Of a DNA stretch of 64,000 nucleotides, positions 46,392 through 48,691 are shown in pieces. The notes below the pieces were generated by a model. It made no database searches, was not told where the DNA came from, and saw only the letters and a list, made by a program, of their open reading frames with translations. The stretch is taken from the NCBI RefSeq assembly GCF_011405515.1, contig NZ_AP022671.1, positions 2,852,001-2,916,000 of the forward strand. The letters are read 5' to 3'. The stretch comes from Nitrospira sp. KM1. GTDB lineage: Bacteria > Nitrospirota > Nitrospiria > Nitrospirales > Nitrospiraceae. A program made the position numbers and the translations under genes. Positions within the stretch are counted from its first letter, which is position 1, and each line of letters opens with the position of its first letter.

Positions 46392-47195
46392 ATGGTGAAT
46401 ATCATTGTCGCGGGCGCGGCCGGTCGTATGGGCTGCCGTCTCGTGGCCCTCATCAAAGAAGCGGCCGAACTTCGATTGGCCGGGGCCGTTGAAGGCAAAG
46501 GACATCCGGCGGTCGGCCAGGACGCTGGTGAGGTCGCCGGCTGTGATCGCAGCGGTATCAGGATTACCGACGATCTTTCGGCAGTGATTGGCCAGGCCCA
46601 AGCGGTCATCGACTTCTCGGTACCCGAAGCCACTCTGAAGAACCTTCGCACAGCGGCGCAACACCAACGGGCTATGGTCATTGGTACGACAGGATTTTCC
46701 GCATCGGAGTTGGATGAACTGAAGACGTTGGCCGGCCGCATTCCCTGCGTCTTCTCGCCGAACATGAGTGTGGGGGTGAACCTCATTTGCAAGATCATCA
46801 GTGAAATGGCGAAGACGCTCGGAGAGGATTACGACATCGAAGTCATCGAAGCTCATCACCGGCTCAAGAAAGACGCCCCCAGCGGCACCGCGCTGAAGAT
46901 TGCCGAGGTCTTGGCCAAGGCCGTCAATCGAGATTTGAACCAAGTCGGAGTCTATTCAAGAAAAGGGGTGATCGGCGAACGCAAGAAATCTGAAATCGGC
47001 ATCCAGACAATTCGGGCCGGCGACATCGTCGGCGACCACACCATTCTCTTCGGCGGGGTGGGTGAACGCATCGAGGTCACGCATCGAGCCAGCAGCCGTG
47101 ATACCTTCGCCCAGGGAGCATTGCGAGCGGCACGGTGGGTGGCCGGTAGGCCCCCCGGACTTTATGACATGACGGATGTGTTGGATTTGAAGTGA
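46392..47195 (+). CDS. dapB: 4-hydroxy-tetrahydrodipicolinate reductase
   Basis: 267 residues. It reduces hydroxytetrahydrodipicolinate with NAD(P)H. The nucleotide-binding motif VAGAAGRMGCRLV opens the protein, VIGTTGFSASELDEL follows, and the active-site EAHHRLKKDAPSGTALKIAE closes the pattern. It is the last gene of the arg-lys run, after which a repeat element begins. With DapL elsewhere in the window (59648-60823) and LysA here, a DapL-type lysine pathway is implied. Confidence 0.96.
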   Translation: MVNIIVAGAAGRMGCRLVALIKEAAELRLAGAVEGKGHPAVGQDAGEVAGCDRSGIRITDDLSAVIGQAQAVIDFSVPEATLKNLRTAAQHQRAMVIGTTGFSASELDELKTLAGRIPCVFSPNMSVGVNLICKIISEMAKTLGEDYDIEVIEAHHRLKKDAPSGTALKIAEVLAKAVNRDLNQVGVYSRKGVIGERKKSEIGIQTIRAGDIVGDHTILFGGVGERIEVTHRASSRDTFAQGALRAARWVAGRPPGLYDMTDVLDLK

Positions 47196-47343
47196 TGGTC
47201 CATGCGCCTGAATGAATTGGCCTCTTCAATCACCACCTACGACTGGAGGCTTTCCAGTTTCCTCGCAGGCTTGTCGAAAACTGTTTTGGACTCCGGAAAA
47301 CACAGAGCCGAGTATGATCGCTGATCGGGTCGGAAGAGCTCAT

Positions 47344-47773
47344 AGGATGTTCAAAAAGGCCATTGTCTCACCCACCCAGCCCCGGCGATTCCATTTCCAC
47401 CCTCCCACCCACCGATTGCTTTGCAATCGTTATCCCGCAACGCGCCGTTCCGCGGGCAAGGCCGCAGCCAGGTCCGCGGCGCGAAGAATAATGAGCGCCA
47501 CGGTTGCGGACGGGCGCGAGTCGGTGAGCGCCCAGTGTCTTGAGGCGAAGCGTAACCTTTCTCACCGCCCGCCCACCGACTGTGGGAACAGTCGTTTTCC
47601 CGGGTCTCACCCGCCCGCCCCGAGCGGCCCAAGCCGCTCTTACCCGGGCAGTACGCTGAGCCTCTGAGGTTCACGCCGTGCCGAATAAGGCACGGCACGC
47701 CTGTGAACGCCGCCGAGATAGTGAGGCGGCAGTGTCCCGCGAGAACGCAGCCGGAGGAGTTTTTCAACATCCT
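47344..47773. mobile_element. MITE-like hairpin-rich element, about 430 bases
   Basis: The ends are imperfect inverted repeats: AGGATGTTCAAAAAGGCC at 47344 and the complement AGGATGTTGAAAAACTCC read from 47773, matching at 15 of 18 positions. The flanks GCTCAT (left) and GCTCGT (right) could be a six-base target duplication with one change. The interior is GC-rich and packed with stem-loops, including CGATTGC/GCAATCG, CGACTGT/ACAGTCG, GAGCGGC/GCCGCTC, GCCGTGCC/GGCACGGC and GCCGCC/GGCGGC. No transposase is encoded, so it would be non-autonomous. From memory, similar ends are very common in Nitrospira genomes; I could not check. Confidence 0.65.
47401..47648 (+). repeat. Tandem C-rich hairpin cassettes inside the element
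   Basis: Three similar units share a layout: a C-rich lead (CCCACCCACC, then GCCCGCCCACC, then CGCCCGCCCC), a hairpin, and a tail of the form GTTATCCCG, GTTTTCCCGGG or TTACCCGGG. The hairpins sit at 47413-47429, 47577-47594 and 47622-47639. Their stem sequences all differ, yet each pairs perfectly for seven bases, which implies that structure rather than sequence is conserved. Confidence 0.6.
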
Positions 47774-48071
47774 GCTCGTGGTCAAGGAAGGCGCATCGTT
47801 GACCTCCGTGGACAGTGAAGGCCCGCGATAATCTCTGCGTGCGATCTTTGAGTCTGAAGCGGATTACAGAATGAGTCGGCTGGAGGGTTGTAACGCAGGA
47901 CTGGGAAGATCGTCCGCCGGCGTTCGTTTTCCCTTCAGATTCTGCGTTCGTGTGCCGCGAGCGGATCGTTGATCATGCAAGTTTGCATGTTAGAGCTAGG
48001 AGGTCGTTCCGAGAAGTCGCTCGCCTGGAGGGTTTGGGGCCCCAGTGGTATCAAGCGCCCCTCTACGAGAA
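47774..48071. other. Intergenic region, no supported gene
   Basis: About 300 bases between the repeat element and the small zinc-ribbon gene. Short frames occur on both strands but none has a start signal. The sequence VVKEGASLTSV can be read just right of the element and may be the tail of a gene disrupted by it; support is weak. Confidence 0.3.
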
Positions 48072-48224
48072 TCAGTGTCTCGCTGTGAGGGGGCGAGGTT
48101 CCTGATCCGCAGCCTTGCGACGACCACAGTTCAAACAGGCGAACACCATGATCGCAAGTCCGGCATCAAGGTCGACTGCGCGCTCGGGGTACATTGTTCC
48201 GCGGCATTTGTCACATGTCTTCAT
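48072..48224 (-). CDS. Small zinc-ribbon protein, 50 residues
   Basis: A frame from ATG at 48224 to TGA at 48072-48074 encodes MKTCDKCRGTMYPE at the start and VFACLNCGRRK in the middle, two CxxC pairs about 23 residues apart, a typical zinc ribbon. Tiny proteins of this design are common in Nitrospira-like genomes. GTGGGG lies just before the ATG. An inverted repeat ATGGAT-GCAT-ATCCAT at 48249-48264, 25 bases upstream, could be its operator. Function unknown. Confidence 0.6.
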   Translation of the reverse strand: MKTCDKCRGTMYPERAVDLDAGLAIMVFACLNCGRRKAADQEPRPLTARH

Positions 48225-48439
48225 GGCCCCACTCTAGCACCACCATAAATGGATGCATATCCATCGGAAGTACGGTCTAACGTGGGAAATAGGTCCCGTG
48301 TGAGCGGCATGACATAGGCCATTCGATCTATGTGCTATCGGCAGTGATAATGTACCCGGGAAAGCATTTCAAGTTGGTCCATCCTTGACAGTGAGCGACA
48401 GCTCCCATAGGATTGTGGTATACGAACATTACCTCTACT

Positions 48440-48691
48440 ATGTATAGGATTCTCTTCGCACTAATCCTCCTCACCATCCTCTTCTTTCTAGTTCGGAGCG
48501 CCATACGGGATTTCAGGGGGCGTGCAGGACAAGGGATGCTTCCTCCCGACAAAGATCAGATGGTGCAAGATCCGGTTTGCCGTGCGTTTGTACCTAGGGG
48601 AACGGCTGTGACGGAAGTCGTGGGAGGGCAGACCTACTGTTTCTGTGGTCGGACTTGCGCGGACAAGTTTCAGAAGCAGATGTCCGCCTAA
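48440..48691 (+). CDS. Membrane-anchored YHS-domain-like protein
   Basis: 83 residues from MYRILFALILLTILFF at 48440, a single N-terminal membrane anchor. A short cytoplasmic or periplasmic domain follows with QDPVCRAFVPRGTAVTEVVGGQTYCFCGRTCADKFQ, the YHS pattern, carrying four cysteines suited to metal binding. YHS proteins are linked to copper or other metal handling. No clear Shine-Dalgarno is present. Its stop overlaps the convergent lipoprotein gene by four bases. Confidence 0.75.
   Translation: MYRILFALILLTILFFLVRSAIRDFRGRAGQGMLPPDKDQMVQDPVCRAFVPRGTAVTEVVGGQTYCFCGRTCADKFQKQMSA

Follow-up and report, generated by a model that had tools for sequence, protein, structure and literature searches.

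We consider it likely that the three hairpin cassettes in the window (the whole stretch of 64,000 nucleotides analysed here) are exchangeable modules of a composite, non-autonomous, MITE-like and BOX/BIME-like repeat of the Nitrospirales, in which stem pairing is kept and which affects transcription according to its orientation. The repeat itself is real, lineage-specific and composite, with covarying hairpin modules, and is neither a plain repeat expansion nor a known RNA family. Nitrospira are the main nitrite oxidizers, comammox species included, and they carry a large lineage-specific repeat family that we found described nowhere beyond an automatic REP count.

By direct reading, the window holds three cassettes with a common C-rich lead, a TTxxCCCG tail, and a perfect 7-bp stem whose sequence differs in each, as the first-pass annotation had described. 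That annotation also described them as tandem cassettes at 47401-47648, which did not hold up. Cassettes 1 and 2 lie ~160 bp apart with another module between them, only cassettes 2 and 3 are adjacent, and the true repeat unit is a larger element that had gone unseen, a dispersed composite of 509 bp at 47266-47774 with a 4-bp direct repeat, CTCG, on either side (Table 1). Cassettes of the second type are present as zero to four tandem units in other copies of the element. The window element also holds the remnant of a fourth cassette, whose intact equivalent is GGCGCGCCAAGACGCGCC in L027, and thus contains a broken cassette copy along with three perfect ones. The cassettes lie in a non-coding stretch downstream of a dapA-dapB pair, and the window copy is C-sense after dapB. 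Long ORFs cross the element on both strands, at 47212-47667 (+, 151 aa) and 47351-47785 (-, 144 aa); a Pfam search with the former returned no match, and both are probably spurious.

Table 1. Features of the composite element and its hairpin cassettes, in window coordinates
Feature	Position	Strand	Sequence and parts	Basis or remark
Left target-site repeat	47262..47265	.	CTCG	same as 47775-47778
Whole dispersed composite element	47266..47774	+	inverted ends CAGGcTtGTcGAAAA ... TTTTTCAACATCCTG	own-genome matches, oriented copies
Left module, ~80 bp (78 here)	47266..47343	+	imperfect inverted repeat itself	solo elsewhere (L061)
Inner left arm end, partner of right end	47344..47358	+	AGGATGTTCAAAAAG	comparison of copies
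Fourth cassette remnant	47366..47398	+	lead TCTCACCCACCCAGCCCC (47366-47383); hairpin gone, GGCG joined to ATTCCATTTCC	
Hairpin cassette 1	47394..47437	+	lead TTTCCACCCTCCCACCCAC; stem CGATTGC 47413-47419 / GCAATCG 47423-47429; loop TTT; tail TTATCCCG	
Non-cassette spacer module	47470..47545	+	GGTCCGCGGCGCGAAGAATAATGAGCGCC... family	presence/absence varies among copies
Hairpin cassette 2	47560..47602	+	lead TCTCACCGCCCGCCCAC; stem CGACTGT 47577-47583 / ACAGTCG 47588-47594; loop GGGA; tail TTTTCCCG	
Hairpin cassette 3	47605..47647	+	lead TCTCACCCGCCCGCCCC; stem GAGCGGC 47622-47628 / GCCGCTC 47633-47639; loop CCAA; tail TTACCCGG	
Long-hairpin module	47668..47712	+	GGTTCACGCCGTGCC..GGCACGGC..GTGAACGCC	sequence, copies, fold
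Right end	47759..47774	+	GTTTTTCAACATCCTG	comparison of copies
Right target-site repeat	47775..47778	.	CTCG	same as 47262-47265

Across the ~40 copies read, the core of the element consists of the ~80-bp left module followed by a long imperfect palindrome that runs from AAAAAGGCC..GCAGCGAGCGAAGAGGCG..GTAC to GTACG..GAGCCTCTGAGCG..GAGAACG..CTTTTT. Cassettes occupy a site near the end of the left arm, a mirror-image site near the end of the right arm, and the apical loop. Copies vary from L050, whose core is nearly empty, to elements of over 600 bp that carry several cassettes and other modules. The inner end of the left arm and the right end co-vary across lineages (GATGT/ACATC, GCTGT/ACAGC, GATGC/GCATC), and the whole element folds better than its shuffles both as RNA (z -3.6) and as DNA (z -4.5).

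Within its own 4.5-Mb genome, that of a Nitrospirales bacterium, 49 stretches match the window element in part or in full, and ~40 relatives carry zero to five cassettes each. Its end motif occurs at 58 sites there with at most two mismatches, vs. none for the reversed control. One cassette-free core (L051 207-686, own genome 2556400-2557100) has the tmRNA gene ssrA immediately downstream of it (Rfam tmRNA match at 338-686), and the left ~80-bp module stands alone at L061 ~1978 (-), where it forms a short inverted-repeat element bounded on each side by CTAG.

To assess stem pairing, we selected cassettes by their lead alone and ignored the stems, which gave 321 distinct cassettes. Perfect 6/6 Watson-Crick stems were present in 200 of these (62%), 33 of them distinct stems, vs. 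only 2 of 321 (1%) after the downstream bases were shuffled, so the real pairing claimed for the cassettes is well above chance. A strictly unselected subset gave 58 perfect stems in 119 cassettes vs. 2 when shuffled, and fixing the register by the lead and a loop anchor gave 119 in 183 vs. 44. Variants that differ from the commonest stem by one compensated pair numbered 18, a 12-fold excess over the 1.5 expected (maximum of 6 in 1000 shuffles). Mutual information was maximal exactly where the bases pair, although the innermost pair was nearly invariant. Covariation, which the first-pass annotation had proposed to check, is therefore above background. Stem pairing is kept while the stem sequence drifts, and by our own definition, compensation in a selection blind to the stem, the cassette is a covarying hairpin module. 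Broken stems elsewhere, named in advance as evidence against selected structure, were found in part, as ~38% of the lead-selected copies fell short of 6/6 and many have decayed.

These stems make plain tandem expansion of a C-rich sequence an extremely improbable account of the cassettes. Same-stem cassettes do recur as one to four tandem units with a 46-bp period, indicating that tandem duplication also occurs, and an array of four 45-bp cassettes (L068 290-480, own genome ~880690-880880; stem TTCCGCG/CGCGGAA) stands alone outside the TIR element. However, the stems differ and all are paired, single copies are dispersed, and inverted copies lie in the other arm. As a source of the differing stems, expansion is refuted by the excess of compensated variants. 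The argument for structure over expansion thus stands for the differing stems, where compensation far exceeds background, and fails for adjacent copies with identical stems, which are tandem duplications. In the composite repeat that we favor, same-stem cassettes would multiply in tandem through slippage or recombination, while cassettes differing in stem would be old paralogues.

Compensation could also arise from mutation, if template switching in a quasi-palindrome copied one arm onto the other and left compensated pairs without any selection on structure. Such upkeep would match the strand-symmetric mismatches, which show no wobble excess, and the many perfect stems found beside decayed ones. 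It leaves unexplained the bias in gene orientation described below and the conserved parts of the cassette, namely the lead, the tail, and the loop CCRAGA, and we regard it as possible but somewhat unlikely. The suggestion of selection on structure is supported in part, by the compensated stems (18 vs. 1.5), with the reservation that palindrome-correcting mutation could yield the same pattern unselected. Because a single constant lead carries so many different stems, the cassette offers a natural experiment that sets hairpin selection against such mutation.

The first-pass annotation had suggested a structured RNA, and a non-coding or cis-regulatory RNA whose stems covary because the hairpin is bound or sensed would be in keeping with the stem covariation, the link between orientation and transcription, and the RNA fold of the whole element. 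Covariation does not single out RNA, however. One-sided mismatches were divided between G.T and A.C at 18 vs. 15 in the lead-selected set and 11 vs. 9 in the lead-and-loop set, where an RNA made from one strand should favor G.U; because no such preference was seen, pairing alone does not indicate RNA. The fold is equally extreme as DNA, gene context is not fixed, the ~38% of broken stems count against a maintained RNA, and a search of the element against the Rfam covariance models gave 0 matches at gathering score and E<=5. Overall, a structured RNA seems to us a quite unlikely explanation. The stem pattern is compatible with selection acting on a hairpin in DNA, with selection on RNA transcribed from either strand, and with correction of one arm by the other as the DNA replicates.

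Orientation relative to neighboring genes also bears on the composite repeat and its putative effect on transcription. With gene directions taken from a home-made codon-scored ORF caller, elements were rarer than expected between divergent genes and commoner than expected between convergent ones (p 0.005 and 0.003). In co-directional gaps, the G-rich strand was the coding strand in 76 elements vs. 18, summed over a first set (51 G-sense to 9 C-sense) and an independent set that was retrieved through the lead only (25:9). This G-sense bias was strong for cassettes in the left arm (37:3) and apical loop (11:0), followed by the right arm (9:3), with the others less biased (18:12), while cassette-free cores had no clear bias (6:10). 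Copies in the own genome, too small a set, showed none either (0 G-sense, 3 C-sense, and 5 mixed); this counts against our reading, as do the C-sense window copy and the weaker bias of the other cassettes.

Replication-linked insertion was rejected as the cause of this bias, as the ratio by replication strand in four genomes was 32:23 and not significant, with two genome lengths approximate and the terminus assumed to lie opposite dnaA. General GC skew was also rejected, since it reached only +0.035 in such gaps; too few other C-tract motifs occurred for a comparison. Given a gene-linked bias and no significant replication-strand bias, orientation follows transcription.

A cassette would therefore, we infer, matter when it is transcribed. 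The C-sense transcript would consist of a C-rich, G-poor lead, a GC hairpin, and a short U run, and may be disfavored between co-directional genes. It would probably attenuate or terminate transcription and so harm the downstream co-transcribed gene, possibly by way of a C-rich stretch that loads Rho together with the hairpin; surviving co-directional copies would hence carry the G-rich strand as mRNA. A canonical intrinsic terminator (a GC hairpin followed by at least 5 T in 8) was sought in 47150-48450 and rejected, with 0 found and a T run of 2-4 after the stems. Nor do we claim that the G-rich strand forms a G-quadruplex with a hairpin loop, as the G-tract of the tail is not conserved in every copy (TTTCACC and GTTCCGCG tails). 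The strong gene orientation means that an effect on transcription can be tested directly, and this is the part most deserving of a test.

Evidence on mobility came from the element ends and flanks. CAGG[CA]TGTTGAAAAA is found at both ends, giving the terminal inverted repeat of a MITE. Outer flanks are mostly CTAG. In a flank list compiled by hand from the copies read, 5 of the 14 copies with at least one non-CTAG flank had identical 4-bp flanks (CTCG in the window, CTAT, CTAA, and TTAG twice), vs. 0.6 expected by shuffling, which points to a 4-bp target duplication and agrees with a MITE. From its ends and target repeats, the outer element appears to have been mobile at one time; the target repeat is 4 bp long and YTAR-like, and the ends are inverted. 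The long imperfect palindrome inside it bears the C-rich-lead hairpins near each arm end, in mirror image, and in the apical loop. No transposase lay between paired element ends, only ordinary genes were present where end motifs stood far apart, and the genus contained no PF13751 and no matching PF01609 as an autonomous partner. Because no transposase with shared ends was found, we call the element MITE-like and not a proven MITE.

A RAYT, the Y1 transposase that would recognize the hairpin in single-stranded DNA and move it as a REP or REPIN, was also considered. The cassettes are small hairpins with a constant flank and a variable stem, occur in many copies and also alone, and Y1_Tnp genes are common in Nitrospiraceae. 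However, two near-complete, cassette-rich genomes (G009 and G024) lack Y1_Tnp; G009 has 39 cassette-model matches and no Y1_Tnp candidate at all. None of the 43 Y1_Tnp loci inspected was flanked by a cassette, and the two lead-pattern matches there were one sequence without the cassette hairpin. The 5' GTAG/GTGG guide (as in PMC6006769) is absent from the hairpin foot, where the 5' side of the cassette reads TCACCCRCCCRMCC and the foot on the complementary strand CGGGAAAA, and replication-strand bias is lacking. We therefore rejected RAYT as the mover and hold a REP/REPIN origin to be very unlikely.

Beyond the own genome, a covariance model built from nine own-genome cassettes had matches in 132 of the 147 Nitrospiraceae genomes, representing 20 of the 22 sampled genera. 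Among 395 genomes of the phylum, 83 contain the bare lead TYTCACCCRCCCRMCCC; a single one of these falls outside the order, control matches were zero, and the cassette is almost absent outside the order. Named records with a cassette belong to Nitrospira (N. moscoviensis, one MAG of N. defluvii, and numerous further MAGs) or to the rest of the Nitrospirota. One exception among these records, a 3-kb contig labelled Pyrinomonadaceae that carries the Nitrospira repeat (L246, JAMQPH010000357.1), is probably misbinned.

Stand-alone cassettes in other Nitrospira (L125, L177, and L192) have a different common upstream context, TCTTCCACTGCGCGCGACTTTC, which suggests that this cassette also has a second family of host repeats. 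Others lie in frame within long open frames (L144 1502-1548, L155 1502-1548, and L150 ~1470-1515), the host frame being DnaE-like in L144 and resembling a thioredoxin-type lipoprotein in L150. The 46-bp cassette could be viewed as an independently spreading hairpin that enters or is swapped among host repeats and even genes, and that attenuates transcription in one direction while compensatory change preserves it throughout the Nitrospirales, a reading that we hold to be doubtful.

Among known systems, the bacterial MITEs reviewed in PMC10969869 share inverted ends, a 4-bp target repeat, non-autonomy, and strong folding with the Nitrospira element, which differs in being GC-rich, in its nested modules, and in having no identified partner transposase. 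The cassettes found in frame inside genes (L144, L155) recall the Rickettsia palindromic elements (PMC10969869), but Nitrospira cassettes are 46 bp long and mostly intergenic, and we make no claim of conservation for a candidate peptide. RepRanger automatically called 635 REPs in N. moscoviensis (PMC12306157), and the available portion of that paper describes no repeat family like that of the element studied here; this automatic count was all we found in the literature on Nitrospira repeats. Like BIMEs, REPs, and REPINs with their RAYTs (PMC6006769, PMC12306157), the element has intergenic palindromic units in mosaic combinations with a constant flank and a variable stem, but its unit is larger, has a C-rich 17-nt lead, and is without the GTAG/GTGG guide or dependence on a RAYT. 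In build it resembles the BIMEs of Escherichia coli, and in sequence it is unrelated to them.

The BOX elements of Streptococcus pneumoniae (boxA-boxB-boxC) are modular, 67-637 bp long, and enriched between convergent genes, with an orientation-dependent effect of boxB, and have been described for streptococci only (PMC3049150). Our element is like BOX in its composite modular build, size range, inverted ends, target repeat, and convergent enrichment, and in the varying copy number of a hairpin module in its interior. It is set apart by description, being GC-rich, restricted to an order, and of a sequence that we call unrelated, with many covarying stems on one constant lead and modules mirrored in both arms. 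By analogy, then, the Nitrospira element may work in the manner of BOX and BIME sequences, a likeness that we do not extend to membership in either family.
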